Shown: in pieces, positions 10,659 to 63,193 of the stretch | Layout of the letters: the number at the start of each line of letters is the position of its first letter | Numbering within the stretch: the stretch's first letter is position 1 | Assembly (NCBI GenBank): GCA_015143295.1 | Contig: CM026553.1 | Location: 3,371,912-3,435,911 of the forward strand | DNA from: Tetracentron sinense | Lineage: Eukaryota > Streptophyta > Magnoliopsida > Trochodendrales > Trochodendraceae | DNA length: 64,000 nucleotides | Direction: 5' to 3' | Made by a program: the position numbers and the translations under genes | The notes under the pieces: generated by a model | Told to the model about the DNA's origin: nothing | What the model saw: only the letters and a program-made list of their open reading frames with translations | Databases searched by the model: none

Positions 10659-12146
10659 TGTAATATCCTGAACCAAAAAAAATATGGGTCTAAGGTGAAA
10701 AAACCATGGGCCAAAAGCCCATCATTTATTTAAAATTTAAATTAAGGAGATAGAGATTAGTTTAGATAAGGTTAGTTTAGATTAGATCTCTTTTAAAGTC
10801 TTTCAAATCTCTTTAAATTTTAAAAAGAACTAAATATAAGAGAGAGAAAGAGAGAGAGAACATAGGAAAAAAAGAAAGAAATGAGAAATAAGAATTATGG
10901 AGAAGCATAGATCAAACCCGAGAAAACGAGTGAAAAGTTCGAGTCGAAAGTTTTTGGAAGGAAATCAATAATCGAGAAAAAAATCCAGGTAGGTTTTTGC
11001 CATTCTTTTTGTTATAATTAATTTGTAATAAAAAAAATCAAATAAATTTTTGATAGTGATGAAATTGTTACAAAAAATTCTAATTAGATAATTACATGTT
11101 ATTTGAGATTTTCAGAATTATATTAGCATGCATTAATTTTTATTTGCTTATTATTGCACAAATAAAGTAGAAATCTATAACATTAGATTTGTTAATAGAT
11201 GAAAAATATGTATTACAATGATTGTTAAGTTGTAAATAGCATGTTATGCATGATCGATGCATTAAGGACGGTTATATGATGCCGTGGGTGAGAGCCCCTA
11301 AAATGATGAGCAAGCCAGGATCGTGGATCCTTGGGTGAAATGTCCTAAAGCCCTTGAGAAAGATCCCTTGCTTGGGATAGTCAGTTTGACCGAACTGGTA
11401 ATAAAATCAGTGATGATATTAAGGCCGAGCTGGTGTGAAAATCGAGCCATCATACTTGCATGACTCATAATATTAATTTATATTTTTGTTAAGGTATTTA
11501 TATTGCATATCTTTTTATTATAAATTAACTGTAAGAAAATGAGTGAATTTTTCCTACTGGGATTCATAGCTCATTAGACATTTCATGTCAATATTTCAGG
11601 TATGGAGTAAGGGATGCTTAGAAATGAAGAAGAAACATGAAGACTTCTCTCGTTATGTAGTGTATTTGTTTATTTAATTGAATTTAGTAAATGATGTGTG
11701 AACTTTGGAAGTAAATTTATTATTTAGAATAAGGATTGGTTTCATTTATATATATATCTTAGAAAGACATGATAGGTATAGAAACCAAATTTTAGTTTTA
11801 AATAAAAGTAATGCGACATTGTTGTTTTCTTAAAATTTTAAGTTTAGTTTCGGAAAAATATTTACAGAATATCTTCCCATTGTCGGAAAATTCTGAAATT
11901 TTATACGTAGTTCACAAACTTATAGAAGTATGTCCCTGTAAAATTTCAGGTCAAAATAATTTCATTTACTATTTATTTCATAATTATTTATATGAAAAAT
12001 GAACCCTTAAAAAAAACTAAATTAATATACTTAAAATACCAATTATAAATTAAATTATTAATAATTCTCACCCCCGAATTCTAGATCTCAGGCCGGACCA
12101 TAGATAATGGGCTGAGTTGTGAGTTTTTATAAATCGGGGCGTGACA
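10659..12146 (+). mobile_element. LTR1 of the tandem array
   Basis: 1,488 bp, beginning TGTAATATCC and ending GGGGCGTGACA. It contains an inverted pair CATGGGCCAAAAGCCCAT near its start and a GA-rich stretch. The three LTRs differ by scattered substitutions and a few one- to four-base indels, so the array is not brand new. Confidence 0.88.
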
Positions 12147-12571
12147 AAATGGTATCAGAGCATCAGTTAGTAAATCCAAGGGGTTTAAAAAAAATGTGTG
12201 AGTAGTCATGATCAATCCAAAAATAAAAAATTTGAGTACCTATATTTTTTATTATGTACTTAGGAACATCTATAAGACATGATTAAGGCATTAATGGAAC
12301 AAAAGTGGTGTCCAAGAATGAATTTTTGAATAATTCATAATTACTCAAATGATGTGTTATGTGGTATTTATTATTTTTTTTATGACATATGAACATTACA
12401 TTGATGACACTAGCAGACATAATCCATAGATAAATGAAATCAGTTGAACAAATCATATAAGAAATGTATTTCCCTGAAGTAATTAGAAACTAGACGATGC
12501 GAGGTTCGTAGATTTGATACAGATGAGTATGTCTTAATTTCGAGAACGAAATTATTTTAAGGTGGGTAGTT
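12147..12571 (+). other. Internal stub 1 with PBS (12,150-12,161) and polypurine tract
   Basis: 425 bp between LTR1 and LTR2. TGGTATCAGAGC directly after the LTR is the classical initiator-Met tRNA primer site. No coding sequence is seen except the degenerate last codons of pol before AAGGTGGGTAG. An element this short would depend on another element for all proteins. Confidence 0.88.
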
Positions 12572-14061
12572 TGTAATATCCTGAACAAGAAAAAAATATG
12601 GGTCGAAGGTGAAAAACCCATGGGCCAAAAGCCCATCATTCATTTAAAATTTAAATTAAAGAGATCGAGATTAGTTTACATAAGGTTAGTTTAGATTAGA
12701 TCTCTTTTAAAGTCTTTTAAATCTCTTTAAATTTTAAAAAGAACTAAATACAAGAGAGAGAAAGAGAGAGAGAACGCAAGAAAAAAAGAAAGAAATGAGA
12801 AATAAGAATTATGGAGAAGCATAGATCAAGTCTGAGAAAACAAGTGAAAAGTTCGAGTCGAAAGTTTTTGGAAGGAAATCAATAATCGAGAAAAAAAATC
12901 CAGGTAGGTTTTTGCCATTCTTTTTGTTATAATTAATTTATAGTAAAAAAAAATCAAATAAATGTTTGATAGTGATGAAATTTTTGCAAAAAATTCTAAT
13001 TAGATAATGACAAGTTATTTGAGATTTTCAGAATAATATTAGCATGCATTAATTTTTATTTGTTTATTATTACACAAATAAAGTAGAAATCTATAACATG
13101 AGATTTGTGAATAGATGAAAAATATGTAATACAATGATTGTTATGTTGTAAATAGCATGTTATGCATGATTGATGCATTAAGGACGGTTATATGATGCCG
13201 TGGGTGAGAGCCCCTAAAATGATGAGCAAGCCATGATCGTGGATCCTTGGGTGAAAGGCCCTAAAGCCCTCGAGAAAGATCCCTTGCTTGCGATAGTCAG
13301 TTTGACCGAATTGGTACTAAAATCGGTGATGATAGTAAGACCGAGCTGGTGTGAAAATCGAGCCATCATACTTGCATGACTCATAATATTAATTTATATT
13401 TTTGTTAAGGTATTTATATTGCATATCTTTTTATTGTAAATTAATTGTAAGAAAATGAGTGGATTTTTCCTATTGGGCTTCATAGCTCATTAGATATTTC
13501 ATGTCAATATTTTCAGGTATGGAGTAAGGGATGCGTAGAAGTGAAGAAGAAACATGAAGACTTCTCTCGTTATGTAGTGTATTTGTTTATTTTATTGAAT
13601 TTAGTGAATGATGTGTGAACTTTGGAAGTAAATTTATTATTTAGAATAAGGATTGGTTTCATTTATATATATCTTAGAAAGACATGATAGGTATAGAGAC
13701 CAAATTTTAGTTTTAAATAAAAATAATGCGACATTGTTGTTTTCTTGAAATTTTAAGTTTAGTTTCGGAAAAATATTTACAGAATATTTTTCCTTTATCA
13801 GAAAATTCTGAAATTTTAGACGTAGTTCACAAACTTATAGAAGTATGTCCCTGTAAAATTTCAGGTCAAAATAATTTCATTTACTATTTATTTCATAATT
13901 ATTTATATGAAAAATGAACCCTTAAAAAAAACTAAATTAATATACTTGAAATACGAATTATAAATCAAATTATTAATAATTCTCACCCCCGAATTCTAGA
14001 TCTCAGGTTGGACCATAGAAAATGGGCTGAGTTGTGAGTTTTTATAAATCGAGGCGTGACA
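12572..14061 (+). mobile_element. LTR2 of the tandem array
   Basis: 1,490 bp, same TG...CA ends as LTR1. It serves both as 3' LTR of the left unit and 5' LTR of the right unit. It shares with LTR3 several variants absent from LTR1, for example the form of the short tract after CTTAGAAAGACATG. Confidence 0.88.
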
Positions 14062-14487
14062 AAATGGTATCAGAGCATCAGTTAGTAAATCCAAGGGGTT
14101 TAAAAAAATGTGAGTACTCATGATCAATCCAAAAATAAAAAAATAGAAAATTTGAAGACCTATATTTTTTTATAATGTATTTAGGAACATCTATAAGACA
14201 TGATTAAGGCATTAATGGCACAAAAGTGGTGTCCAAGAATGAATTTTTGAACAATTCGTAATTACTCAAATGATGTGTTATGTGGTATTTATTATTTTTT
14301 TATGACATATGAACATTACATTAATGACACTAGTATACATAATCCATAGATAAATGAAATCAGTTTAACAAATCATATAAGAAATTTCCCTGAAGTAATT
14401 AGAAACCAGACGATGCGAGGTTTACAGATTTGATACAGATGAGTATGTCTTAATTTCGAGGCTGAAATTATTTTAAGGTGGGTAGTT
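14062..14487 (+). other. Internal stub 2 with PBS (14,065-14,076) and polypurine tract
   Basis: 426 bp, collinear with stub 1 and differing by scattered changes and a few small indels. It has the same PBS, the same pol-end phrase (here GAGGCTGAAATT) and the same purine tract. Confidence 0.88.
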
Positions 14488-15976
14488 TGTAATATCCTGA
14501 ACAAAAAAAAATATGTGTCTAAGGTGAAAAATCCATGGGCCAAAAGCCCATCATTTATTTAAAATTTAAATTAAGGAGATAGAGATTAGTTTAGATAAGG
14601 TTAGTTTAGATTAGATCCCTTTTAAAATCTTTTAAGTCTCTTGAAATTTTAAAAAGAACTAAATACAAGAGAGAGAAAGAGAGAGAGAGAACGCAGGAAA
14701 AAAAGGAAGAAATGAGAAATAAGAATTATGGAGAAGCATAGATCAAGCCCGAGAAAACGAGTGAAAAGTTCGAGTCGAAAGTTTTTGGAAGGAAATCAAT
14801 AATCGAGAAAAAAATCCAAGTAGGTTTTTGCCTTTCTTTTTGTTATAATTAATTTGTAGTAAAAAAAAATCAAATAAATGTTTGATAGTGATGAAATTGT
14901 TACAAGAAATTCTAATTAGATTATGACATGTTATTTGAGATTTTCAGAATTATAATAGCATGCATTAATTTTCATTTGTTTATTATTGCATAAATAAAGT
15001 AGAAATTTATAACATGAGATTTGTAAATAGATGAAAAATATGTAATACAATGATTGTTATGTTGTAAATAGCATGTTATGCATGATTGATGCATTAAGGA
15101 CAGTTATATGATGCCGTGGGTGAGAGCCCCTTAAATGATGAGCAAGCCAGGATCGTGGATCCTTGGGTGAAATGCCCTAAAGACCTCGAGGAAGATCCCT
15201 TGCTTGGGATAGTCAGTTTGACCGAACTGGTACTAAAATCGGTGATGATAGTAAGGCCGAGCTGGTGCGAAAATCGAGCCATCATACTTGCATGACTCAT
15301 AATATTAATTTATATTTTTGTTAAGGTATTTATATTGCATATCTTTTTATTGTAAATTAATTGTAAGAAAATGAGTGGATTTTTCCTATCACTTCATAGC
15401 TCATTAGATATTTCATGTCAATATTTTCAGGTATGGAGTAAGGAATTCTTAGAAGTGAAAAAGAAACATGAAGACTTCTCTCGTTATGTAGTGTATTTGT
15501 TTATTTTATTGAATTTAGTGAATGATGTGTGAACTTTGCAAGTAAATTTATTATTTAGAATAAGGATTGGTTTCATTTATATATATCTTAGAAAGACATG
15601 ATAGGTATGGGGACCAAATTTTAGTTTTAAATAAAAGTAATGCGGCATTGTTGTTTTCTTGAAATTTTAAGTTTAGTTTCGGAAAAATATTTACAGAATA
15701 TTTTCCCATTATCAAAAAATTCTGAAATTTCATACATAGTTCATAAACTTATAGAAGTATGTCCCTGTAAAATTTCAGGTCAAAATAATTCGATTACTAT
15801 TTATTTCATAATTATTTATATGAAAAATGAACCCTTAAAAAAAAACTAAATTAATATACTTAAAATACCAATTATAAATTAAATTATTAATAATTCTCAC
15901 CCCCCGAATTCTAGATCTCAGGTCGGACCATAGATAATGGGCTGAGTTCTGAGTTTTTAGAAATCGGGGCGTGACA
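14488..15976 (+). mobile_element. LTR3 of the tandem array
   Basis: 1,489 bp, ending GGGGCGTGACA. It is followed not by a PBS but by unrelated sequence (GGCTCACAAG), so it is the outer right end of the array. Because the left end is truncated, no matching target-site duplication can be tested. Confidence 0.88.
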
Positions 15977-26880: not shown

Positions 26881-27156
26881 GTATGGCTATTATGAACAAA
26901 TGCATAACAATCAGTTTAAAATACTAATATTTATTCAAATTATGAAAGTATAGAAAAGTATTTTGTATTTTAAGTCGAAAGCATAAATTTGTCATTGGAA
27001 ACTTGCTCTACTAAATTTTTAATTTGAGAAGAAAAATATTTAGTGATTCCCAATAAGAATGAGAATTTTTTTAAGTAATCTAGTTCAATATGTTCTGAGC
27101 ATTTGTTTAATCATTTGGGTGAAAATAAATGAAATGAGATAGAAAAAAAAAACATA

Positions 27157-28755
27157 CCTGATGAAAGGAGGGAACAACGGATGTCGAAGGTTGAACAGGA
27201 CAGATGTTGGAGGTTAAACGGAATGGAACCTTTACGGGAGAGAATAATACAGTGGTTGCTAGAAGAACAGAGAGGGCTAGGGATTATGTTCAAAATATGA
27301 GCGCAAAGAGAGATGAAGTGACTTTTTTCATCTAAAGAGTAGAGTTTCAATCATGGTTTCTAACTCTTAATGTGACCTATTTTAAAATATCATCAATATT
27401 TTTATTGTAACAGTGATCGTAACTCTAAAATAATTAACAAAAATTTATATATTTGTAGTTGACATGACACCCTTACAATCACAGTCACTAATAAACCGTA
27501 TCATTTCTTTTATAGAATCACGGTTATTTTAATTACCAGGATCGTAACCGAAAAATAATTAACTAAAGTTTATAAGTAGTTGACGATAGTTCTTACAATC
27601 ACTGTTTCGAATAAACGGTGATTGTTACTTACAAGAATCACGGTTAGTTAAATAAATGAAAAAAAGATAGAAAAAAAAACATACCTGATGAAAGGAGGGA
27701 ACAGTTGTCAGAGGTTGAACGAAACTGATGTCGGAGGTTGAACCGAACGGAACCTTTGCGGGAGAGAATAATACAGTGGTTGTTAGAATAAGAACAAAGA
27801 GAGTTAGGGATTATGTTCAAAATATGTGCTCAAAGAGAGATGAAGTGACTTTTTTTCGTCTAAAAAAGTAGAGTTTCGATCTCGGTTTCTAACTCTCAAT
27901 GTGATCCTTTTTTAAAATATCATCAATATTTTTATTGTAACCATGATCGTAACTCTAAAATAATAAACAAAAGGTTACATACTTGTAGTTGACATGACAT
28001 CCCTTACAATCACGGTCTCTAATAAACCGTAATAATTTCTTATACAGAATCATGGTATTTTAATTACCAGGATCATAACTGAAAAATTATTAACTAAAGT
28101 TTATTTATGAGTAGTTGAAACAACAGTTCTTACAATCACGGTTTCTAATAAACAGTGATTGTTAATTATAAGAATCACGGTTAGTTAAATAAATGAAAGA
28201 AAAGATAGAAAAAATATATACCTGATGAAAGGAGGGAACAATTGATGGAGGTTCAACGAAACAGATGTCGGAGGTTGAATGGAACGGAACCTTTGCGGGA
28301 GAGAATAATATAGTGTTTGCTAGAACATGAAACAGAGAGGGTTTGAGATTATGTTCAAAATATGCGCGCCAAGAGAGAGATGAAGTGACTTTTTTTCATC
28401 TAAAGAAGTAGAGTTTCGATCACGGTTTCCAACTCTCAATGTGATCCTTTTAAAAATATCATCAATATTTTAATTGTAACCATGATTGTAACTCTAAAAT
28501 AATTAACAAAAATTTATATAGTTGTAGTTGACATGACATCCCTTACAATCATGGTCTCTAATAAACCGTAATTGTTTCTTTTACAAAATCACGGTTATTT
28601 TAATTAACGTGATCGTAATCGTAACTAAAAAATAATTAACTAAATTTTATTTATGAGTAGTTGAAACGATAGTTATTACAATCACAGTTTCTAATAAACG
28701 GTGATTGTTACTTACAAGAATCACGGTTTATTAAATAACCGTGATCGTTGTACAC
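27157..28755 (-). repeat. Three tandem units of about 530 bp in the CACTA leader
   Basis: The phrase CCTGATGAAAGGAGGGAACA begins units at 27,157, 27,684 and 28,221, so periods are 527 and 537 bp. On the minus strand each unit ends in CCTTTCATCAG followed by GTAT, a good splice donor, preceded by a C/T-rich leader (CTCTCCCGCAAAGGTTCCG type) and by an array of ATCACGGTT inverted repeats. This looks like promoter, untranslated first exon and subterminal repeats amplified as one block. Confidence 0.85.
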
Positions 28756-46499: not shown

Positions 46500-46875
46500 A
46501 TGATAATATGTGACCTGCCCTCTTCCCTCCTGCGTGGTGCAAATGGACCATCCCAACCCTCAAACCAGAATCTGATTTTGTGCCTCATTGCCACCAATCA
46601 TCTCTATCTGATCAACTTCCCTTGTGAACTCTCTAGAACCACCACATTCGCTCCTGCCTTCACTAGATGCTCCAACCTCTCCTTATCATGTTCCCTCGTC
46701 CCCATGGCCGCTCCCACCATGAATTCACCATCCGTCCCAAGCCACGGAAGCCCTAGTTTCGGAAACCCATGAATCCTCTCCATTATCAAATTTACAACCT
46801 CACCATCTCGCTCACTTGCTAAAGGTATGTAATCAAGCTTCTTCCCAGCTATTGCTCAAGCAAATAGCTTGACAG
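46500..46875 (-). pseudogene. Second, decayed copy of the large IMPDH exon
   Basis: The minus strand matches the 50,250-50,880 exon in the same orientation over its 3' two thirds, including [20 protein letters not shown] and [20 protein letters not shown]. Several short segments of about 8-40 bp are missing, for example the part encoding the EVCAA end and the TYPELDVIGG part. It ends abruptly near 46,875, so the 5' part including most of the CBS-like region is absent. It lies within the first visible intron of the other copy, 3.7 kb downstream, so it is a tandem duplicate of part of the gene that has since decayed. Confidence 0.88.
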
Positions 46876-49564: not shown

Positions 49565-50249
49565 ACGATAACCAGAAAAATAAGAACAAAATAACACAAG
49601 ATATTACATGAATCAGCTAATGATGTCTACGTCCACAAATCCACACTTCACTATGCTGAAAGGCAAAAAAAAAAATCGAAGCAATACAAGTTCTCACTCT
49701 CTCTTAAGGAAAACCTCTCTTGGTGGCAACAATAGCTTTTCACAGACTATTGGGACACCAAAACCCTAATCCCAAATTACTTTAAATACTAAGGCCAAAA
49801 CGGGCTTTAGTAGGAGAATTCTGAGTTTGTGAAGCTTGAGGAGATATCAACCAGGGATATTCTGAAGCCTCAAGATAAGAATGTGCAGCTAGGGCCGCAC
49901 ACACCAGTACCCGAGAGGTGATCATCTAGAACAATTAGAACTCCTACTCGATATTCACCTTCTCTACATTATCTACTGTTAACAGATAATGGTGAACCAG
50001 AAAGCTATTAGGAAGCACTGCAAATGAAAACTAAGGTTAAGTGAGAGTTTGCTATGGATGATGAGATGGACTCCCAAAAACTATACGTATAACCCGTTTT
50101 GTATTGGTTTCGGCGATTTTTATTTCCATGGATTTTACTATTTAATGGAATAACCATTATATGCAAGGATAATAAATTGAAAATTATAAATATATAATTT
50201 GGAAATATTTTTCTATAATCAAGATAATATTTCAACAAGAATATGTTAC
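49565..50249. other. IMPDH intron sequence next to the first visible exon
   Basis: No feature was recognised. Confidence 0.35.
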
Positions 50250-50880
50250 CTGCCCTCTTCCAGCTGCACAAACCTCCTGCGTGGTGCAAATGGACCCAGA
50301 ACCCATCCCAACCCTCAAACCATCGGCGCCAGCCTGTATCAGATTTTGTGCCTGATAAGCTGTGACAACATTGCCACCAATAACATCCAACTCAGGGTAA
50401 GTCCTCTTGACATACTTGATCATATCGATCTGATAAATCGAGTTCCCTTGTGAACTATCCAGCACCACCACATTAGCTCCTGCCTTCACCAGATGCTCCA
50501 ACCTCTCCTTATCCTGTTCCCTCGTCCCCATGGCAGCTCCCACCATGAACTCCCCATCCTTCCCAAACGACGGAAGCCCTAGTTTCGGCAACCCACGCAT
50601 CCTCTCCACATCAGCAGTTGTAATCAGATCCACAACCTCGCCATCTCGCTCGCTCACTAAAGGTATGTAATCAAGCTTCTTCCCAGCTAAAAATGCAGAA
50701 GCTTGCTCAAACGAATAGCTTGACGGAGCTGAAACGGGCGACCCTAACATATAATGAGAAACCGGAGCATCCTTTTCCGTTAAACTCTGCCAATCGGATT
50801 TTGCAACAACGCCCAACAGCTTCAATTTAGCGTTCCTGGACTCGGTAGACGGTCGATGGATGAAAATGTGGATATTCGTG
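50250..50880 (-). pseudogene. IMPDH pseudogene, first visible exon (CBS region to catalytic Cys loop)
   Basis: The exon starts after a good acceptor (CTGTTTGCTTCATAG) in phase 1, so an upstream exon must have existed; an ATG at 50,891 lies in the intron and is not the real start. It encodes KLKLLGVVAKSDW, the CBS-like PVSAPSSYSFEQASAFLAGK and [13 protein letters not shown], then barrel segments [31 protein letters not shown] and the active-site loop GMGSGSICTTQEVCAAGRGQ, whose Cys forms the covalent XMP adduct. It ends at CAG with donor GTAACA (50,248-50,249 side). Open throughout. Confidence 0.92.
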
Positions 50881-51420
50881 CTATGAAGCAAACAGAAGGG
50901 GAAATGCTTTTGTCGCTCGTGCTGTCATGCAGACGTAAGATTCAAAAGTGATGAATTTGAATTTTGAACACGTGATGAAGGTTTAAAAACACGAATGGGG
51001 CATTTGGATTGGATTTTTTAGGCCAAAAATCAATTTTGATAAAATTGATTGTGTAGAAATTAAAGGTCAAATAATCATTTTTTCAAATAATAGTGTTCGG
51101 AGAATACGTAGGTGAGTCTCTCAACTTCATATTCTCCGAACACTATTATTTGAAAAAATGATTATTCGATCATGAATTTCTACACAATCAATTTTATCAT
51201 AATTGATTTTTGGCCAAAAAAATCCAATCCAAACACCACCGAAATTTATGTCAATATCACATTCGACCCGGAAATGATTTTTTTCGAATTTTGGACGGAA
51301 TTTCCAGTAAAAGCTTTTTTTAATAGTTTTTTTTTTTTTTTAGAAATCGAGATTTCGCTTAAATTTTTTTGTTTTTTCATATTATCATTGATTATTTTAT
51401 AATTTTAGATATTTTAAAAT
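50848..51420 (+). repeat. Left outer direct repeat (IMPDH exon edge plus intron)
   Basis: Apart from one inserted element (50,997-51,239), this segment matches 62,655-63,058 in the same orientation. It starts with GTAGACGGTC and GGATATTCGTGCTA (the acceptor-side edge of the IMPDH exon) and runs through GAAGGGGAAATGCT and CATGCAGACGTAAGATTC to the T-rich end ...TTTTAGATATTTTAAAAT. The match stops sharply at 51,420, where sequence related to the inverted repeats begins. Confidence 0.88.
50997..51239. mobile_element. Hairpin MITE of about 243 bp
   Basis: Two arms of about 108 bp are near-perfect reverse complements around a short loop (CGTAGGTGAGTCTC region). The outer ends are GGGGCATTTGGATTGG and its partner CCAATCCAAACACC. 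The related segment at 62,880 lacks it, which defines the insertion. The direct-repeat flanks are short and uncertain (CGAA on both sides), so superfamily assignment is open; the GG-TTTGG ends resemble Tourist/Harbinger-type MITEs. Confidence 0.85.
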
Positions 51421-51496
51421 AGGCCTCAGATTGCCTCTGGCAAAGCCAGAAACCCCTCTCGGGGTTCCATACATTGTGCGATAGCTGGCGTAAAAT
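51421..51496 (+). repeat. Extra partial copy of the inverted-repeat end sequence
   Basis: TTGCCTCTGGCAAAGCCAGA followed by CTCGGGGTTCCATA matches 51,604-51,650 (TTGTCTCTGGCGAAGCCAGA ... CTCGGGGTTCCATA) in the same orientation, about 175 bp away. It joins the left outer direct repeat directly. Confidence 0.8.
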
Positions 51497-51497
51497 G

Positions 51498-51543
51498 GGG
51501 GAGAAGTCATTTTATTTTCTCCCAATAATTTTGACTTCTCCCC
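51498..51543. repeat. Small hairpin at the outer end of the left arm
   Basis: GGGGAGAAGTCA and TGACTTCTCCCC are exact reverse complements separated by 22 bp. With one bulged G the pairing extends to AAAT/ATTT outside. The corresponding place on the right arm has a related but longer hairpin. Confidence 0.8.
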
Positions 51544-52838
51544 ATTTGATATCTCTCTCCCTTATTCTCCCACACTTATCATCACATGTCTTACTAGGCT
51601 TTGGATTGTCTCTGGCGAAGCCAGAAAGCTTATCTCGGGGTTCCATAGAGCGTGTGACGTGTGGCATGGATTTGGGTGGCAAACCGAAAATGGTGGACGG
51701 GAGTTTTCTCCATTAACATTTAACAAAATAATATTTTATGACTTTTCGGAAACAGTGTTGGTCAGAACGCTCAGTTTGAACTAAGTGCATTTGGGGCCTT
51801 TCCTCTTTAGCTTTGCTTGCTGTTTGGGTTTGGATGGTTACAGACCTTTCTTCTTCGGCTCACCTCCGGCAACCAAGGTTTTTTGCGAGTCTCTTTCAAC
51901 GCATCACTGATTCCATTGGGGGTTTTACGAGTGGAGCGTGTGACGTTCTCTCTCTGGCAACCAGTTCGTGACTGCCGGACTGGCGACTAGCTGAGCCTCG
52001 GAATTTTTTGGGGTTTTGAGATTTCCAGAGACCACCATCTCTTTCTTGCCGGCGACAACGAAGGTATCATTCTTCTCCTCCCAGTAATCCTTCATTCTTT
52101 TCTATTTGGGGTTTGATTTGGTTTTTTTTTCCCCCCTTTGGTCCCCCAGATTATTTGGGGGTTTTGATTTGGGGAAAAACTAGAGGCTTCAAACGAGTAA
52201 AATTCCTAGTATTGCGCACCATCAACTGAACTTTGTTGAAATCCCCATTTTTTCCAAAATCCCCAACTTGGTTTTCAGTTACATATATATGAGCCATTCA
52301 CTTGTTAAATTCTTCCAATGCAAACCCATTTCAGAATTTGCTTGTAGTATATCAAGATTAGAACAAACCCATTTCAGAATTTGCTTGTTGTATATCAAGA
52401 TAATACTTGAGTTGCTTGAAACTGCAGTCTGAATATAACTTTGATCTTGTTTTTCTCGCCCCGCCATCTCGCCGACTTGAACATCTCTGGTTGCTTCTTC
52501 AGTTTGACATAACTCCCAGTTTTTCAGCTAGTAATCCTCATCATAACTCGACTATTTAATGCTGGAAAGTAACTATTATGATCTCTAACGTATTTTAACT
52601 GAATTAAAATTTAAACTAAATAAGGTTCAAACCATCTTCATCTGTGAAGTATAAAAACCAGTTTAAAATACTAAAGTTCTCTCTGTTTAATCTCATTTGA
52701 ATGAGAAGGTGAATTGGAAGGTAGGGAAAAAAAAGAGTAAGCAGATCTAAGTAGTTGTTTATGTTCTATATTTCGTTGGACTTATGTAAATGAGCTAAGG
52801 TAGATTTGATGGACAAGAAGTATAAGATTGCTCACCAC
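51544..52838. repeat. Left arm of a large inverted repeat (about 1.3 kb)
   Basis: This segment matches the reverse complement of 61,133-62,398 nearly base for base, with a few indels at the outer end. On its minus strand it contains a short open first-exon-like stretch (MAGREKQDQSY..., 52,279-52,467) followed by a GTATTAT donor-like site, which recurs in the right arm. A 43-bp internal duplication (CAGAATTTGCTTGTAGTATA twice, 52,330-52,400) is also present in both arms, so it predates the arm duplication. The inner edge joins the beta-galactosidase exon. Confidence 0.92.
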
Positions 52839-52985
52839 CACTGTCTCTCGGGCGTCATCTTCCTTGCACATCACCCATGGGACTCCTGTACCCAATTCTC
52901 GGGTGGCGATATTTGCTGCCCAAGTCATGTATGCATGTCCAGTTGCTCCAAATGCCTTACCTTCTGGTCCATGCTCATTCTCAAT
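52837..52985 (-). pseudogene. Single beta-galactosidase (GH35) exon
   Basis: The minus strand has acceptor TTTGTATATGCAG, an open exon encoding [20 protein letters not shown] and then [15 protein letters not shown], and donor GTGAGC. This is the plant BGAL exon carrying the Glu of the (Q)IENEYG catalytic block. BGALs remove terminal galactose from cell-wall polymers in the apoplast. No other BGAL exon was found on either side. The end of the exon is altered (ARETVV where APDPV is usual), and [13 protein letters not shown] is one residue longer than common. The intron beyond the donor is the inner end of the left inverted-repeat arm, so exon and arm are joined in what looks like native gene order. 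Confidence 0.85.
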
Positions 52986-52989
52986 CTGC

Positions 52990-53460
52990 ATATACAAAAT
53001 GTAATTGAGTCAACATTGTAAACTAGTTTAATGTATATGCATATTGATGACTTATTATTAATGTATTAATTAATGTATTAAATATAATTAAGATCCATTG
53101 CAAGTACCTAATTCCTTTGCTTACTCTGATATCTTCTGAGCATTCCGATGGTGAAACATACTTGGTATGATCTTTCAACTGTGGGGGAAGCCTAACTATA
53201 TAATGGCTAGGGGGTTCAATTTGTGATCCTTAATATGATTGTGGTTGCCATAATTTAGTTTTTTTAAATACATACTTGTGATTTATTTGTTTCATATATG
53301 TATGAGTTCATTCTACATGTCAATATCTACTATATCTAATATGATCTTAACAGAGTCTCAAGTTCAGGGAAGAGCACAATACGCATTTCAGAAAGGCCGA
53401 ATTAGTAACAGGGCTGCAGGCATTTATTTCTAGTGGGGTGATTCACATTGTAATACATTG
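52990..53460. other. Spacer before the FAR1-like pseudogene
   Basis: AT-rich sequence; it may include promoter or 5' leader of the FAR1-like gene. No specific site can be supported. Confidence 0.35.
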
Positions 53461-53462
53461 AT

Positions 53463-56073
53463 ATGGATCATAGTGTATTGGGTAATCCTTGTGAAGAAGA
53501 TAATAGTGGATTACAAATATCACGCAGGTTATCATTTGAGACAACAGATGATGACTGTAACTATGCTAGTGGATCTGAGTACAACAAAAAAGGTTTGACA
53601 AATGAAGATGGTACACCAAATCCAGAAATTGGAATGGAATTTGAGTCAAAGGATCAGGCATATGATTTCTATAATGAATATGGAAGAAAGGCTGGCTTTA
53701 GTATTCAAAAGGATTGGAAAAATAAAGATAAAGCTAGTGTCGTGAGTCATAGAAAACTTTGTTGTTCGCGAGAAGGTCTTAAAAAAGAAGATAAACGAAA
53801 AAACATTAAGACCAGCGAGATCCTACTAGATGTGATTGTAAGGCTCACATTATAATTGCTCTGCAACCAAATGAACATTATAAGATAATTCAGAGTGAAT
53901 TAGAGCACAACCATCATTGTACACCAATGAAGTCTTACATGTTTAGGTCACGGAGGAGAGTAGCCAAGGCTCAAGCTATTGAAGTGAATATGGCAAGTAG
54001 TGTTGGTATAAACTCGAAGAAGACATATGACCTTATGACCGCAGAAGTGGGAGGGCCCGAAAATGTTGGTTTTTTGCACATGGACATTAAAATTATATTC
54101 GTTCCAGACGGATGAGGTCAATGGAAATGGGAGATGCAGGAGCAATATTACAGTATTTTCAACTGATGGTTGTAGAAGATCTAGGGTTTGTATATTCCTT
54201 ACGACTTGATGCCGAAGATCAAATAACTAACTTTTTTTAGGTTGACTCTAGAATGGTAAATGACTACAATGCATTTGGTGATGTGCATGTTTTTTATACA
54301 ACTTATAGGACAAATAATCAGGCAAGGCCATTTGCACCATTTGTAGGAGTTAATCATCATAAGCAGTCAATTTTATTTAGAGCGACATTAATGTATAATG
54401 AAACAACTGCATCTTTCAAGTGAGTGTTTAGGGCTTTTTTGGCTGCAATGTCTGATAAACAACCGAAAACCATTCTTACAGATCAAGACAAGGCAATGGC
54501 CAATGCAATTTGTTCAGTTTTACCAGATACTCATCATCGCATCTGTGTGTGGCATATGTACCAGAATGCAAGAAAGCATCTTAGTCATGCATTTAGTAGT
54601 TCAAAGTCTTTCGTTGCAGATTTCAACAAGTTGATATATGACTATGATGATGAAGAAGATTTTTTGAACGGGTGGGAGAACATGTTAGAAACATACAGTC
54701 TAAGAGGGAATACATGGTTACAAAAGTTGTTTAGTGAAAATGAAAAATGGGCTTTGGTGTATGGAAGGAGTACATTTTGCACGGATATGAAAAGCACCCA
54801 AAGAAGTGAAAGTGTGAATAGTGTATTGAGACGTATTTAAATAGCACTCATTAGTTGTTGGAATTTTTTGAACATTTCGAGAGGGTAGTAATTGAGAGAA
54901 GGAATGCGGAATTGCGAGCGACTTCAAGATGACACAAAGTGAAGTAGAAGTTTTTGCGAATATTCCATTGTTGATTCGTGCAAGAAATTTCTACAGCCCT
55001 AAAATATTTAAATTGTTTCAAAAGGAAAATCGTATGGGAATGACTTATCGTGTCAAATTGTCTGTCCAGTGTGATGCCACAAACACATTTATAGTAAAAT
55101 GCCCGGAGAAAAAAAGAGAATACACAGTTACATGTGACAAAAGTGGATTCACTATCCATTGTAGCTGTAAAAAATTTGAATTCACTGGAATTTTGTGTGG
55201 TCATGCATTGCAAGTATTGTTCAGAATGGAAGTGGAGGAAATCCCAAATCAATACATGTTTAAGAGATGGAGTAAACATGCAAAGGATGCATGTATTGGC
55301 ACTAGAAGTTCATTATTTGTGGGGGATGTAACATTGTCAAAGCGTTATAAGGTCTTAAGTCGCATGTCTATGAAATTTAACACTAGGGCTGCTGAAAATG
55401 AACAATCCTTTAAAATTGCTATGGAAGGTTTAAGTGCAACAACGTCGAATGTTGATAATTTTTTCAGTAAATTATCCATAAATGAGACTCAAAACCTTGA
55501 ATCAGAAGAGATGGTTAATGAAGCACCCAAGGAAAATGATGACAATGAGATATCCAATCGGATGAAGGGACTAGCAAAAAATGATCAAGGACATAAGGGA
55601 AGAGCGAGGATCCCGGGTTGTTTAGAGAAGAGGAAAAAAACAAGAGGGTCATCTAAGGTGCCTCACTACACCTTGCCACCCACTGGTCCCATTATACGTT
55701 CCATGCCGACATGTCCGAGTGATCAAGGAATGCAGGTACTTAAATTTGGTTTGCATTATAAATCAAAGTTTATTTATTGCCAAGTTTAAGTTTTCACTAG
55801 TTTTAATTTTGATGTGCTAAATAGGGGTTCCAACAGAATGTTGGACCAAGTCAAATTATGAACCAACAAGAGCTAAGTTTAAATCAAGTAAACCCATACA
55901 TGTACCAACAAGCTCAGCTGAATCAAGTGAACCCTTACATGTACCAACAAGCTCAGCTGAATCAAATGAACCCGTACATGCACCAACAAGCCCAGTTGAA
56001 TCAAGTTCCACCATATACGTACCAACAGTTTCAAGGCCCTCCAATGTCTTCTTTAATGTATGGGCAGCCATAA
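53463..56073 (+). pseudogene. FAR1/FRS-like (MULE-transposase-derived) gene, pseudogene
   Basis: Reading N to C: FAR1 DNA-binding zinc finger with GMEFESKDQAYDFYNEYGRK (about 53,630-53,690), C-S-REG and RCDCKAH, closing with EHNHH. Then the MULE-type transposase core with YNAFGD, RPFAPFVGVNHHKQS, TDQDKAMA, CVWHMYQNARKH and STQRSESVN. Then the SWIM zinc finger CSCKKFEFTGILCGHAL (about 55,160-55,210), and a second exon (55,825-56,073) after donor at 55,734. FAR1/FRS proteins are transcription factors domesticated from Mutator-like transposases. Disablements: frameshifts near 53,817, 54,085, 54,835 and 54,927; TAG at 54,238-54,240 and TGA at 54,421-54,423, both at Trp positions; another TAG near 54,850. 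It is the only transposase-like gene within the inverted repeat, so an actual MULE transposase is an alternative. Confidence 0.88.
55882..56034 (+). repeat. 39-bp coding tandem repeat in the FAR1-like second exon
   Basis: Three full copies and one partial copy of a 39-bp unit start at 55,882, 55,921, 55,960 and 55,999 and encode NQVNPYMYQQAQL. The copies differ mainly at third positions and a few residues (M for V, H for Y). They form a Gln/Tyr/Pro-rich C-terminal tail. Confidence 0.92.
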
Positions 56074-56079
56074 CTATAC

Positions 56080-59000
56080 CAAAACCAGACCATGTATCAG
56101 CATTTGCAACAATCCATCTATGGGTCATCTCAATAACTATTACTGAATTATGTTGATCAGTGTGTGTTGCAATATTTAGGATTAGAAATAAGTTTTGCAC
56201 CTTCTATTAGTAGACAATTTATCCATATGTGTGTTGTTTAGTAATTTTTGCAAACAAGTTATTAAGTATGGAAGGACTAGCAAAATCTTCAGCTTCTATT
56301 GGTTTACAATCTCCAAAGTGTGCGTAGTACCGGGCATGGGGTTTTGGGTTTTAGCTGGCATTATAGAAAGAACAAAACAAATAAATAGCTAATCCACCAA
56401 CACAATATTGGGGGAACACAATTTCTACAAGTATTTATTGCAAACAATGCCAACAATATTAAAGTCAGCCTTTCACTAACCTGTATAAGGTCTTTTGATG
56501 TTTTCTTCACAATTCTTTTTTCTATATTTTGATTTCCTAGTTACCCTTCCATTTTGTATGAGTATTTGCAGTCATTGGTAGTACGAGTAGTATTGACTTT
56601 GCTAAAACTACCAAATTGCACACTTTGCAAAATTGATGTCTTTCAACTTCAGCTTAACTCTTTCAACTTCAGTGGTCAACAATATAAGATACAGTGTATA
56701 GTGGGTCAGTTAACTCTTTTAACTTCAGCTTTGTCAATAGTTCGTTCTAGATGATGTTCAAATTTGAGAGGACATTGGCTGTATGAAATTTGTTGAGAAT
56801 TTGACTAACATTAGAAGCTGCAAATGAAGTTTATAAATGGTAGAGATTTTACATTGGATAGCAAATTGTAATACTTAGTTCACTAATGTACCCTGCAACA
56901 TCTCTGAATATAAATGATGACTATGGTTCCAATGAGGCAATGATAATTCAAATGTGTCATCCTGATCCTGACAGTGATTCTGATGTTATTATGGGGAGTT
57001 ACCCAATCTGATTTTCTTGTGGATTTGGATTAGAACATCCTGTTGATTCTGTCAGTCTTGGTTTATGGTCTACTCTCTTGGTAGCTATAGTTAAAAAGAT
57101 GATGGCACTTGCCCTGAATAAGATAAAGATGAGCATTTAGGTATTGATAATTGGGGTTTATTCGGACTGAAGTAATCAGTTGTCAAACTATCTGGATAAG
57201 ATGATGGCACTTGACCTGCAAAGTAACCACCATTGTATTATTTGACTTTTTTGTGGACATAATTGATGGACTTTGGGTATAGTTTTTGGAGGTCATGTGT
57301 ATTGGCGACGGCGGCTCCACGAAATAGTAAATTATTATTTTTGAGTGTTAGCGATTGTGGGTGTATGGGCCCACTACTGTAGCATAACCAAAAGGGACTA
57401 TTCCCCCCATAGGGTTGAGCCCAAGCTCTCTTCTTTATGGGTCCTTGAAAGGCAGGTAAAGCATGTGAATCTCCTATTTTATTTGAGTGTTAAACCATTG
57501 TTGGAAAATAGAAACTCTTCCGAAGGATGGTGGTGTTTTTATTAGCACTGTCTAGGCTCGTTAGTCAGTTGTAATAGTGTTTGACATGATTACAAATGAG
57601 GATATTTAGCTTTTAAATATACATTCTATTGTGTTGGTGGATTAGCTATTTATCTGCAATAAATATTTGTAGAAATTGTGTTCCCCCAATATTGTTGATG
57701 CCATAGGAATTGCATTTCTGCTGCTGCATACATGTTCATGTCATTGTAACAGAGTCATTTTTTTCTTATAATCATTACCAAATATGTTCATGTCGTTGTA
57801 CCAGAGCCATTTAGTCATCTCCTTATATGTTGTCTCTATATGTTACAGGAATCGCCACTTGGTGTGGGGAATAGCTCACAAGGAGACTGTCAAGACCTTA
57901 CCCCTCAAATGACGGATAGGTATCCAGACCTCATATTTATTTTTAATTAATATATGAAAACCCCTTTATTTGATGTTTTGAAGTAATCATAGTGAAAATT
58001 TACAGTGACAGCTATGTTGCATGTTTGTGGTTTTGCAGTTATGATAATTGAACTATTGCTCAAAGAAATAGCTAGTAAGCCAGCTGTATCCAGGGCTATG
58101 GCATGGGAGAAGGATTATGAGTTTGGAGCTGAGTCTGCCGAAGGGGAGGGGAGGAAGATGAATGTGATGAGTACTAGGTAGATGTGGTATGGGTTTTCAG
58201 GTTTTTGGTCTTTTGCAGGGCATCTGAATGAATCTGACATTGCTACAGATTAACCTTGTAAAGTGTTAGTCCTAGTTTTGAAACTTACACATTTACTCAT
58301 GGTTTATTTATTGTCAGAATTCTTCAAACTGATGTGAGTGACAGGGAAAAAAAATGGAAGTTCAGGTGTTCTTGGGTTTATGAACATGCATGTTTTATTT
58401 GTGAGCTTTAGAGTTTATGAACATGCCAAATATGGAGAAAATGTTCTTCACCAATACATTGCATGAGTTGAGAATTAAGTGTCAAAATTCCAGCAAATGA
58501 AGGTGTTGGGGCAGCTTAGTAAATTTTCTTTGATCATAGCTGAGAATGCAAGCTTACGGTAGCAATTAGGCAACGGAGGCACCTATTCGCCACCTCCGGG
58601 CATTTATCCACATCCCTTCCCAGTATAAGTATATTATGAATGCAGCTTTGAGAGAATAAAACTGGAAGTGTAAACTAAAGGTGTTATACTCAGCCTTGTA
58701 TATTGAAACACAAAACATCATCCCATGGACTATTCAAGGCAGGTGGAACCGTGGAAGTGGAGGAACACCAATGTTCCATATGCTCGAGTGCTCGACCAGA
58801 ATTCACTAGAGATCTTTGTATAATTCTTTAGAAGAAGCAAAACCAAGTCCCAGAATTTGAGTTATGGTAAACGGGATTAAAAGATACTGAATAATTAGAG
58901 CTTACATGCACTCTCTTGTCTGTTTTCACATCCCCTTTTACTTAGGAACTTGTCTTCTACTCTTTTTATAGACTTCTAAAAGGGAAATGGGTAACACTAG

Positions 59001-59555
59001 TTGTTACCATGCACCTTGCGTCAATGACTGCGGCTAGCATTTCTGTCCCAACAATTCCAAAAAAAAATGACACTCAAATGGGAGACATATTTCCAAGTGG
59101 CAAAACCCATCATCAACGAAAGGGAGGATTGTGTTTCCACAACACTATCCTACAATAAATCTATGATGAATTACAACAAATTTATTATAAAATTTCTCCC
59201 ATTTTGTTACACTAAAAACACAAACACCAAGATCACAACCGAGAGAAAGAGAGAGGCAAAACTCTAGTAACATGAGAGATTAAATATGAAGGCATCCAAA
59301 ATCGCCACCGTCGCCAATATGAAGAGCTCTCTAGCAACTGGCAGCCGAAGAACGCGTCACTAAACTAAAACCATATATATATATATATATATAAGCTTTG
59401 CATATATATTATGTGGATACAATTATCTATATATACGTTATCAGATCATCAACAACATATCATCACAACAAAAGAATCAAAGGAATAATCATCATCAACA
59501 ACAACAAAATGTCTCTCTTCCCTTCTGATCATCACAATCACAATCACAGTCCAAC
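56080..59555. other. Region between FAR1-like gene and gene fragments
   Basis: No gene was recognised. It holds a pair of inverted, order-swapped segments at 56,381-56,442 and 57,631-57,693, a small repeated phrase AAGATGATGGCACTTG (about 57,095 and 57,198), and a (TA)n tract at 59,374-59,392. Some 3' untranslated sequence of the FAR1-like gene is likely at the start. Confidence 0.4.
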
Positions 59556-59559
59556 CAAT

Positions 59560-59796
59560 CTAAATTTCTATAGAGTTAAAGACATCACATTTGCGCCTCC
59601 CCTCTCCCTTCCGTCCTATCTTGATCCCATAAATGCTAAGCTTCTCCATTGCATGTGAAAATGCCTCAAAGAATGATGTCAGGTTCGCAGCATACATTTC
59701 CACGTAAGGCTTCTTCCTTGGATCAACAAGCATCGCGTGATCCGAAGCCAAAAGCCCCAACCCTCTCGGTAGATTCTTGAAATACATGGAAAACAT
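59560..59796 (-). pseudogene. Class III peroxidase, C-terminal fragment
   Basis: The minus strand encodes YFKNLPRGLGLLASDHAMLV, then DPRKKPYVEMYA, FFEAFSHAMEKL and a C-terminus GIKIGRKGEGRRKCDVFN followed by a short extension and stop. This is the last part of a secreted plant peroxidase (PRX41/65-like wording of the LPRGLGLLASDH block), including the final disulphide Cys. Haem-binding and catalytic residues lie upstream and are absent. Homology starts abruptly at about 59,796, not at a known intron site, which indicates a broken fragment. The next 30 bp lead into an unrelated fragment on the other strand. Confidence 0.88.
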
Positions 59797-59826
59797 ATGA
59801 AGGAAATAATATTCACCAGTGAAACA

Positions 59827-60132
59827 ATGGCGATACATCTCTATGTGACTACCATCCACAAGAGAACTCCCCTCTTGCCTGTACCATTTGTTCTAGACCT
59901 TAATGGCCTGTTCTTATGGGTTAATTGCAAGCATCAGTACTTGTCATCGACCTACCGCGCTCCCCGTTGTCACTCGGCGCAATGCTCAATTGCCAATACT
60001 CACCAATGCCCCACATGTCCTTCTCCGGCTAGGCCCGGGTGCCATAACAATACATGTAGCCTAGTACCTATAAACCCTGTTACAAATAAGAGTGGGAATG
60101 GGGAGCTTGCACAAGATGTCCTCTCAATACAA
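59827..60132 (+). pseudogene. EDGP / basic 7S globulin-like (TAXI-type) fragment
   Basis: The plus strand encodes IHKRTPLLPVPFVLDLNGLF followed by LWVNC, then YLSSTYRAPRCHSAQCSIA, a Cys-rich stretch CPTCPSPARPGCHNNTC, and GELAQDVLSIQ. This is the N-terminal part of the extracellular dermal glycoprotein / xylanase-inhibitor-like branch of pepsin-fold proteins (the first catalytic Asp position is in DLNG). These are secreted, usually inactive proteases. Only about 100 residues are present, without signal peptide or C-terminal lobe. It starts about 30 bp from the divergent peroxidase fragment. Confidence 0.85.
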
Positions 60133-60139
60133 TTAATAG

Positions 60140-61130
60140 ACAGGTTTGGCTGGCAATTTTACTTCAGCATCAGTTGTTTCTAAAGATGGAAATAATGGAG
60201 AAAGGCATCATCAGTTGCCCAACTGAACGGCAAAAATCACTTGCATCTGGTTCTAAAAACACTTTCAAGGAGAATTCAGTCTACTGCAATTGATGGTACA
60301 CTACAAAAATGGTTCCATGAAGCATAATAATTACAATTGTCATAAGATAGTGTAATTTACATAACAAAAGTGCGTTCGGATGTCCCAAATTATATGTTGT
60401 ATGTCTTACTTTAGAAGCATAATAATTACAATTGTCCAAATAACCATTAAAAATCCCATGATTATACATAGTAGACTACATCCACAGGCCGCACAAAAGA
60501 AAAGCTGGCGATCTCTTTTGCATGTATTGAATAATTGTTGTACTGTAGGATCTATTTCACCTTTAGTGGAATGAGGTTCTTCATTGTCATCCACCCAAAT
60601 GAATGAATTGTGATGATCCTAATGAAATTTAAATATTATTAGTTCATGATTTTTGATATAATAATGAGATATTATACATATTAATTAACACATAATATAC
60701 CTATACCTAACCAAGTGGGCACCGGAAAAACCAACGGCCGTAGTTTTTTTTCGTTTTAGCCATGAATAATTTCATGTATTCCCTATTACAAAAACATATG
60801 GGAGCTTGTGTATTTCCTGTCATGCCTGAAAATAATATTTAAAAACATCAATTCTTTCTTTCAATTAGCTGTAAATAAAAAAGTATGTAAAATGATAACA
60901 ATGTATATCAAAATCACACACAAAGCTGACTTTGTCATATTTTGACTTTAGAACCATAAAACAGGATCAAAACAAGACTAGTGTTACTTAATTATGGAGG
61001 TAATATTCTCTATGTTTTCGGTGGCATTGGCAAGACTAGTGTTGAATTTTCCTCAAGGTACTATCACTCAAAACAAAATAAACAGATAAAGTGGACCCAA
61101 ATTCAGTTTGGGCTATAGAACATAAACAAC
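60140..61130. other. Spacer before the right inverted-repeat arm
   Basis: No gene was recognised. The phrase GAAGCATAATAATTACAATTGTC occurs twice (about 60,318 and 60,414) as a local duplication. Confidence 0.4.
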
Positions 61131-61132
61131 TA

Positions 61133-62398
61133 GTGGTGAGCAATCTCATACTTCTTGTCCATCAAATCTACCTTAGCTCATTTACATAAGTCCAACGATA
61201 TAGAAATAAACAACTACTTAGATCTGCTTACTCTTTTTTTCCCTACCTTCCAATTCACCTTCTCATTCAAATGAGATTAAACAGAGAGAACTTTAGTATT
61301 TTAAACTGGTTTTTATACTTCACAGATGAAGATGGTTTGAACCTTATTTAGTTTAAATTTTAATTCAGTTAAAATAAGTTAGAGATCATAATAGTTACTT
61401 TCCAGCATTAAATAGTCGAGTTATGATGAGGATTACTAGCTGAAAAACTGGGAGCTATGTCGAACTGAAGAAGCAACCAGAGATGTTCAAGTCGGCGAGA
61501 TGGCGGGGCGAGAAAAACAAGATCAAAGTTATATTCAGACTGCAGTTTCAAGCAACTCAGGTATTATCTTGATATACAACAAGCAAATTCTGAGATGGGT
61601 TTGTTCTAATCTTGATATACTACAAGCAAATTCTGAAATGGGTTTGCATTGGAAGCATTTAACAAGTGAATGGCTCATATATATATAACTGAAAACCAAG
61701 TTGGGGATTTCGGAAAAAATGGGGATTTCAACAAAGTTCAGTTGATGGTGCGCAATACTAGGAATTTTACTCGTTTGAAGCCTCTAGTTTTTTCCCAAAT
61801 CAAAACCCCCAAATAATCTGGGGGACCAAAGGGGGGAAAAAAAAACCAAATCAAACCCCAAATAGAAAAGAATGAAGGATTACTGGGAGGAGAAGAATGA
61901 TACCTTCGTTGTCGCCGGCAAGAAAGAGATGGTGGTCGCCGGAAATCTCAAAACCCCAAAACATTCCGAGGCTCAGCTAGTCGCCAGTCCGGCAGTCACG
62001 AACTGGTTGCTAGAGAGAGAACGTCACACGCTCCACTCGTAGAACCCCCAATGGAATCAGTGATGTGTTGAAAGAGACTCGCAAAAAACCTTGGTTGCCG
62101 GAGGTGAGCCAAAGAAGAAAGGTCTGTAACCATCCAAACCCAAACAGCAAGCAAAGCTAAAAAGGAAAGGCCCCAAATGCACTCAGTTCAAACTGAGCGT
62201 TCTGACTAGCACTGTTTCCGAAAAATCATAAAATATTATTTTGTTAAACGTTTAACAAACGTTAACGAAGAAAACTCCCGTCCACCATTTTCAGTTTGCC
62301 GCCCAAATCCATGCCACGAGTCATACGCTCTATGGAACCTCGAGATAAGCTTTCTGGCTTCGCCAAAGACAATCCAAAGCCGTCTTACTATGTGTGGG
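61133..62398. repeat. Right arm of the large inverted repeat
   Basis: Reverse complement of the left arm. It contains the same exon-like stretch (61,500-61,688 on the plus strand), the same 43-bp internal duplication and the same outer phrase CTTTCTGGCTTCGCCAAAGA. The inner end stops at TAGTGGTGAGC, exactly at the beta-galactosidase intron donor, so the right arm lacks the exon that the left arm abuts. Confidence 0.92.
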
Positions 62399-62433
62399 GA
62401 AGTCAAAATCATGGGCCCCATGATTTTGACTTC
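62399..62433. repeat. Perfect 35-nt hairpin at the outer end of the right arm
   Basis: Two 17-base arms (GAAGTCAAAATCATGGG and its exact reverse complement) are separated by one base. It occupies the same place as the smaller hairpin on the left arm and shares GAAGTCA/TGACTTC. Confidence 0.9.
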
Positions 62434-62436
62434 TCC

Positions 62437-62654
62437 ACCACTTGTCCCCTATTCTAGGAAACCAGCAGGGTATGCCGCTGCAGATTTCGAATCGTCGGCG
62501 CCGTTTGTGTTGTTTAGGGTTTTTGGAGGGAGAGATTAAAATATGGAGGGAAAAAAAGTCTCAATTCTCTACATCCGATGGCATAATAATTCACTACTTC
62601 CCATATTTTTCTTAAAACAGGTGGGGGTAGTGGGACCCAAATTGTTACTAAGAC
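62437..62654. other. Unique spacer between right arm and right direct repeat
   Basis: 218 bp with no counterpart on the left side; nothing was recognised. Confidence 0.4.
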
Positions 62655-63058
62655 CACGTAGACGGTCAATAATATGGATATTCGTGCTACGAAGCAAACA
62701 GAAGGGGAAATGCTTTGAGCAGTGATTAGCATACCTGGGAAATCCAGCCTTGGATTTTAAAATCCTTTTCCCAGGTACGTTAACTATTTCCCAAATGCTT
62801 TTGTCGCTCGTGTTGTCATGCAGACGTAAGATTCAAAAGTGGTGGATTTGAATTTTGAACACGTGATAAAGGTTTAAAAATACAAAATTTCAGTCAATAT
62901 CAGATGTTCGACCCAGAAACGATTTTTTTCGAATTTTGGACAGAATTTAGAGCAGAAGCTTTTTTTAATTTTTTTTTTTTTAAGAAATCGAGATTTTGTT
63001 TGAATTTTTTTTTTTCATATTATCATTGATTATTTTATAATTTTAGATATTTTAAAAT
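62655..63058 (+). repeat. Right outer direct repeat
   Basis: Matches 50,848-51,420 in the same orientation after removal of the two different insertions (hairpin MITE on the left, 76-bp element here). It begins CGTAGACGGTC, including the edge of the IMPDH exon, and ends TTTTAGATATTTTAAAAT. Confidence 0.88.
62717..62792. mobile_element. 76-bp MITE with 9-bp TSD, probably Mutator-type
   Basis: The left direct repeat reads AAATGCTTTTGTCG without interruption. Here the same place has AAATGCTTT, 76 extra bases, then AAATGCTTT again (62,708-62,716 and 62,793-62,801). The insert contains the exact inverted pair TACCTGGGAAA / TTTCCCAGGTA and looser outer termini beginning with G. The 9-bp duplication fits Mutator-like elements. 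Confidence 0.8.
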
Positions 63059-63193
63059 ATACTATATATTGTGGGGGGAATTCTCGGAGCTCCAACTGTC
63101 TCTGGTTTACTGGTTGAATGATGAAAAATGAAAGTCTGGTCTTAAATTGCTGAGCCTTTCGCCCTGTCATATACACTCCGAAGTTTAAGTTAG

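Follow-up and report, generated by a model that had tools for sequence, protein, structure and literature searches.

How did direct repeats, long inverted arms and pieces of unrelated genes come to lie one inside another at a single locus of the Tetracentron sinense genome? The locus is part of a 64-kb stretch, C3:3371912-3435911, which is here called the window and in which all coordinates without a contig name are numbered; the genome searched comprised 1.16 Gb in 1,479 contigs. The genes in the window (IMPDH with long introns, class III peroxidase, EDGP/TAXi and FAR1) point to a flowering plant. We report that the locus is a Mutator-like element (MULE) with acquired host gene pieces, and that every layer of the nested structure belongs to a known type. 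In the account that we favor, with a probability of roughly 90%, an old duplication that involved a broken IMPDH gene, a non-IMPDH segment (X) and a miniature inverted-repeat transposable element (MITE) was followed by the insertion of a 10.8-kb MULE carrying host fragments into that MITE. The odd nested structure is in this way resolved into ordinary steps.

A Mutator-like element within a MITE

Self-comparison of the window by BLAST returned both the inverted arms and the direct repeats, the latter as three pieces whose full limits were then given by gapped alignment. The MULE, its ends and its target are made up as follows:

51597-62381: the MULE, 10,785 bp, with inverted arms of about 1.24 kb and a perfect 9-bp target-site duplication (TSD)
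51597-52838, plus strand: left terminal inverted repeat (TIR) of the MULE, 1,242 bp, from self-comparison; its last 49 bp or so match a beta-galactosidase gene
61133-62381, minus strand: right TIR of the MULE, 1,249 bp, from self-comparison
51588-51596, plus strand: left copy of the 9-bp TSD, GTCTTACTA, identical to 62382-62390
62382-62390, plus strand: right copy of the 9-bp TSD, GTCTTACTA, with 9/9 identity to the left copy
60248-61117, plus strand: element backbone common to other family members, from comparison with relatives
51422-51596, minus strand: left part of the target MULE-MITE, including the TSD copy at 51588-51596; aligns to intact copies, for example L012
62391-62463, minus strand: right part of the target MITE, with about 43 bp of the terminus missing; aligns to intact MITE copies

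The sequence GTCTTACTA is found in identical form directly outside both arms, and the element therefore runs from 51597 to 62381; an exact 9-mer match at both predicted flanks would arise by chance in about 4 of a million cases (4 to the power -9 under simple base composition). The arms are 96.3% identical by BLAST and differ by substitution at 35 of 1,237 aligned sites (K 0.029). A TSD in the range of 8-11 bp (9 bp), long TIRs and a MULE/Mutator transposase domain place the element in the MULE superfamily. A large Mutator-like element with acquired genes had been one proposal of an earlier reading of the letters alone (the sequence-only reading), and it is borne out by the 9-bp TSD, the long TIRs, the transposase gene, the parents of the fragments and the existence of other copies. 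The arms of about 1.3 kb described in that reading are present, with their outer limits now corrected to 51597 and 62381, but the hairpins which it took for their outward ends lie in the two halves of the target MITE and are inverted repeats of that MITE; the self-complementary stretch at 62394-62438 belongs to the MITE half and not to the MULE arm. Helitrons have neither a TSD nor TIRs, and the 9-bp TSD and 1.2-kb TIRs present here rule out a Helitron.

When the flanks of the MULE are rejoined they begin with GGCCTCAG and align with intact MITEs of about 290 bp such as L012. A genome search with this rejoined site gave 3,578 first-look candidates, of which the best 40 were scored; all 40, at 90-95% identity, continue without a break across the insertion point, which shows that the MULE inserted into a MITE with its own type of ends. 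The query was uninterrupted and interrupted copies would rank lower; because the scored copies are the best matches to such a query, the figure of 40/40 shows that there are many empty copies, not how often MITEs are interrupted. The MITEs of L009, L012 and L013 have 9-bp TSDs with zero or one mismatch. In common with MULE-derived MITEs, those of this family have a length of about 290 bp, GGCYTTGG... ends and 9-bp TSDs; the MITE in the window differs in that a large family member has inserted into it and in that its right end is missing.

In L009, L010 and L011 a family MITE is nested in another MITE at or near position 164-174, with 9-bp TSDs of zero or one mismatch, an arrangement that the query favored. 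In a pattern test 10 junctions followed CACATGTC and 4 followed GATATCTC, with reversed-pattern controls at 0 for both. A hot spot of insertion in the MITE center is not claimed, as several of the 10 CACATGTC junctions are unlike MITE centers and the nested finds are biased by the query.

Relatives, captured host sequence and arms

Further copies of the MULE ends, several of them as inverted pairs, were found by a genome search in which the best 40 of 1,033 first-look candidates were scored. Ten other TIR pairs of more than 1 kb were examined for TSDs with a script that compared every pair of terminus-like sites per locus; the fetched loci L028 and L036-L044, with one end only or unpaired, stand outside this count. 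Allowing for one mismatch, six of the ten have a 9-bp TSD; a mismatch occurs only on C15, and the TSDs of C23, C1:45.78M, C4:38.97M, C2 and C9 are perfect. Copies with the same ends and with TSDs do therefore exist elsewhere in the genome, whereas their absence had been named by the sequence-only reading as part of what would refute it. Two inner site pairs with one mismatch, in the C15 and C4:38.97M elements, lie at mirrored positions within the arms; they are trivial, because near-palindromic words match at mirrored arm positions. The C15 relative spans C15:25200451-25210910 (L015, L032 and L016 combined). The arms of five relatives are as follows:

C15 relative: 1,525 bp, 99.2% identical
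C23 relative: 1,064 bp, 97.2% identical
C1:45.78M relative: about 840 bp, 94.2% identical
C20 relative: about 1,380 bp plus a further inner stretch, 93.6% identical
C2 relative: 1,870 bp, 99.0% identical

Between its arms the window element carries the following captured pieces:

52790-53035, minus strand: beta-galactosidase (GH35) exon and adjoining sequence; 90% identical to C5 (L058), Pfam GH35 E 3e-4
56402-57729, plus strand: captured segment (56443-57729), preceded at its left joint by 41 bp (56402-56442) that repeat part of its far end in inverted orientation; 91-97% identical to C8:23234227-23235700
59031-59788, minus strand: 3' end of a class III peroxidase gene and downstream sequence; 92% identical to C10:31592894-31593644, Pfam E 1e-4
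59829-60145, plus strand: 5' coding part of an EDGP/TAXi-like gene; 96% identical to C20:8075817-8076133, TAXi_N 5e-18

Four unrelated gene fragments had been named by the sequence-only reading. All four similarities are present, and three of them are captured: the beta-galactosidase, peroxidase and EDGP pieces are each backed by a parent locus at 90-96% DNA identity. The fourth, the FAR1/MULE-type gene, is the transposase gene of the element itself and is treated below; the segment at 56443-57729 is additional to that list. On C10 the captured peroxidase part contains the end of an open frame of 271 codons or more, and on C20 the captured EDGP/TAXi part lies inside an open frame of 472 codons; from these frames, and from the exon context on C5, we infer that the named loci are the parents and not further copies. 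Beyond the C10 parent of the peroxidase piece there is a MITE-like match to the same family (L056, about 2154-2383). For the stretch 56402-57695, the status of a separate TIR transposon is unsupported, since the C8 relative extends beyond its right end and a TSD is not evident.

The beta-galactosidase piece also occurs in the family members on C20 and at C16:4.5M, and C23 shares only the adjoining 53047-53326. The C15 element has a 38-bp match inside the EDGP piece, joined to the same downstream backbone as in the window element; the EDGP capture therefore probably predates the split of the two elements. In the window element the inner ends of both arms match the beta-galactosidase gene, over about 49 bp at the end of the left arm and about 49 bp at the start of the right one; in the C20 element both arms contain the beta-galactosidase piece, the two occurrences being in inverted order. 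Because this sequence lies in both arms here and in C20, captured DNA can evidently lie inside arms. The pieces were probably captured by copying in repair synthesis, through template switching or gap filling, and since their donors are identifiable the capture joints are open to study. In animals, gap filling and fork switching have been proposed for capture by a source in which the origin of Pack-MULEs is termed perplexing (PMC8277862). It is conceivable, though rather improbable, that this FAR1-type MULE family keeps enlarging its arms with absorbed host DNA, in such a manner that capture and arm growth are one repair-synthesis process; the opposite course, in which long arms are shrinking, fits the observations equally well.

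The broken IMPDH gene and the outer repeats

Outside the MULE and its target MITE the following features were identified:

50238-50847, minus strand: truncated IMPDH exon, covering Pfam model positions 89-194 only and broken at 50845-50847; from comparison with the C2 paralogue
50845-51421, plus strand: left copy of the outer direct repeat (X), which contains a foldback MITE (about 51003-51233); from alignment to 62658-63059
62464-62657, no strand: joint sequence, without another match in the genome
62658-63059, plus strand: right copy of the outer direct repeat (X'), which contains a 76-bp insert (62717-62792) flanked by AAATGCTTT; uninterrupted past the MITE insertion point

The outer direct repeats had already been recognized from the letters alone, and alignment places them at 50845-51421 and 62658-63059. 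The view that they contain IMPDH intron sequence did not stand, and intron 1 of IMPDH is rejected as their source: in the paralogue on C2, Pfam positions 1-194 lie in one exon, in a single open frame of 378 aa, which reads through the position in question. The IMPDH exon on C3 is homologous to that on C2 up to GGTA at 50847 and then diverges, and X starts with the same GTA (50845). A search with a protein query over about 108 kb downstream did not turn up the missing 5' part of the gene, and none of the six IMPDH Pfam matches listed in the genome lies to the right of the break on C3. Because homology ends at 50847 and the 5' part was not found, the C3 IMPDH is a broken copy; a later piece of it contains TGA. 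A second and degraded part of an IMPDH exon lies at 46597-46851, is 85% identical to 50419-50689, and gives a tblastn match with a stop and gaps.

X ends exactly at the start of the MITE, after TTTAAAATA, and X' continues from TTTAAAATA into TACTATA. The foldback MITE of X is absent from X' and the 76-bp insert of X' is absent from X; as each is missing from the other copy, both probably postdate the duplication. On the left, 175 bp of MITE (51422-51596) separate the MULE from the repeats; on the right, 276 bp made up of the TSD copy, MITE and joint do so (62382-62657). The repeats are not a giant TSD of the MULE, which has its own 9-bp TSD inside the MITE and which the repeats do not abut.

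In the oldest layer, an IMPDH copy would have broken within the exon and become joined, via a 3-bp overlap (GTA), to segment X. A MITE would next have entered the end of X, after which a duplication or illegitimate joining would have placed X' alongside, with loss of the far end of the MITE. End joining is the likely route of this rearrangement, although its exact course is one that we infer. Later the 10.8-kb MULE went into the middle of the MITE and 9 bp were duplicated. The outer layer is separate from the MULE and probably older. A composite rearrangement, which the sequence-only reading offered as its other proposal, applies to this outer layer only, the MULE itself being a separate insertion with its own TSD.

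Several points weigh against the layered account. For the outer layer, the succession of events is a reconstruction and was not observed. A second copy of TTTAAAATA is missing after the right end of the MITE, and for this reason the insertion of the MITE into X is read from X' and from the intact left terminus. The genome search gave no other match for the joint at 62464-62657, which is probably either the native left neighbor of X' or repair filler. X and X' have diverged further than the arms and appear to be the older pair (23 substitutions in 312 sites after excision of later inserts, K 0.079, about 7% different, versus 35 in 1,237 between the arms), but the comparison covers only these 312 sites and presupposes that rates were equal and that the arms were identical at insertion. 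The Pfam matches of the beta-galactosidase and peroxidase pieces, taken alone, fall below curated cut-offs. The C8 locus is a related sequence of the piece at 56443-57729 and a candidate parent only, and that piece was matched to no gene. Finally, a clean TSD was not found in four of the ten TIR pairs tested (C11, C20, C16:28.85M and C4:35.24M).

A different origin of the outer repeats, which we consider possible but unlikely, is a duplication of about 330 bp at a double-strand break with filled-in overhangs, in which the MITE and other DNA were captured as filler. The patch-mediated repair model is reportedly that of Vaughn and Bennetzen. Foreign sequence between direct copies, the 3-bp overlap at one joint and a 194-bp joint without another genome match would all suit such an origin, and insertions of this type, of 10-1000 bp, are summarized for rice, where the duplications are attributed to nick-induced breaks (PMC7407515). 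The locus resembles tandem duplications of this kind in that foreign DNA lies between direct copies a few hundred bp long and one joint shows short microhomology; it differs in that one boundary is like a MITE insertion and a later 10.8-kb MULE lies inside. Capture as filler would moreover need an intact MITE terminus to fall exactly at the end of X by chance, whereas X, TTTAAAATA and a family-type MITE end resemble an ordinary MITE insertion with the other end lost, as the layered account has it.

The transposase gene and known systems

The layered account also takes the FAR1/MULE-type gene to be the element's own:

53351-55786, plus strand: FAR1-MULE-SWIM transposase gene with several frame changes; from Pfam, DNA identity to four large elements and tblastn

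In the window pieces Pfam matches PF03101 (FAR1, E 1.7e-9), PF10551 (MULE, E 1.4e-13), PF00872 (Transposase_mut, E 2.4e-7) and PF04434 (SWIM, E 8.4e-7). The gene is shared at near full length and with 92-95% DNA identity by the large elements on C15, C23, C11 and C1:45.78M, and because of this it is read as the own, now broken, transposase gene of the element; partial copies are present in C20, C4:38.97M and C16:4.5M. The C15 copy is an open frame of 800 codons with PF10551 at E 3.3e-32 and a strong FAR1 match; SWIM was not found in this 800-aa protein, either as a Pfam match at E 0.01 or as an exact CxC...CxH match. Against the same protein the window copy gives six tblastn pieces in changing frames. 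With its transposase broken, the present copy could move only through the transposase of a relative. To judge from the family, past movement would have been cut-and-paste by a MULE transposase acting on the long TIRs, and the C15 arms, 99.2% identical, together with the open transposase frame of 800 aa, suggest that the family moved recently.

Domesticated FAR1/FHY3-type genes have a comparable order of three domains (PMC2528002), which would allow the gene to be a captured host FAR1/FRS gene. We regard this as very improbable: the gene lies between family TIRs in four other large elements at 92-95% identity, and 9-bp TSDs surround three of those four gene-bearing elements (C15, C23 and C1:45.78M). 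That the large MULE itself produced the outer direct repeats, by aberrant or alternative transposition, is given scarcely any credence. The MULE is indeed bracketed by them, but they appear older than its arms and, because the perfect 9-bp TSD lies within MITE context, the MULE insertion explains nothing beyond 51588-62390. Remnants of ordinary neighboring genes, although decayed neighbors can leave gene fragments in plants, or an assembly error can practically be dismissed, as the parents were located on other contigs (C5, C10, C20 and, for the fourth piece, C8) and the outer repeats are about 7% apart, each with a private insert.

By domain content the element appears to be of the Jittery/FAR1 type, with TIRs that exceed the length given for the plant subgroup. 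It shares with MULEs of this type the FAR1, MULE transposase and SWIM domains (in the window pieces), a TSD within 8-11 bp and TIRs; it differs in its arms, which measure about 1.24 kb, and in five relatives about 0.84-1.87 kb, versus 39-292 bp as catalogued, and in a TSD of 9 bp versus the 8 bp listed for the plant subgroup (PMC6446971). The MULEs analyzed in that catalogue have TSDs of 8-11 bp and TIRs of 14-500 bp, with one red-alga group reaching up to 640 bp (PMC6446971), and another account gives typical TIRs as 100-500 bp and TSDs as 9-11 bp, with Pack-MULEs non-autonomous by definition (PMC3310237). As in Pack-MULEs, several host gene fragments with parents elsewhere in the genome lie between MULE TIRs; unlike Pack-MULEs, the window element retains a (broken) transposase gene. 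Host sequence in transposase-bearing MULEs has precedents: some grapevine MULEs have captured ULP sequence, which lies downstream of the transposase frame, and a family with cellulose synthase sequence is described as well (PMC2528002).

The least usual features of the locus are the long arms, of 0.8-1.9 kb, on FAR1-type MULEs and the presence of captured DNA within arms. A MULE family is documented here which combines arms of this length with its own transposase gene and several host pieces of identifiable parentage.

Two tandem arrays were also observed elsewhere in the window. The one at 10596-15976 consists of about three units of about 1.9 kb that are about 94.5% identical, without stop-to-stop open reading frames of at least 120 aa, and the one at 27123-28738 consists of about three units of about 530 bp that are 86-88% identical.

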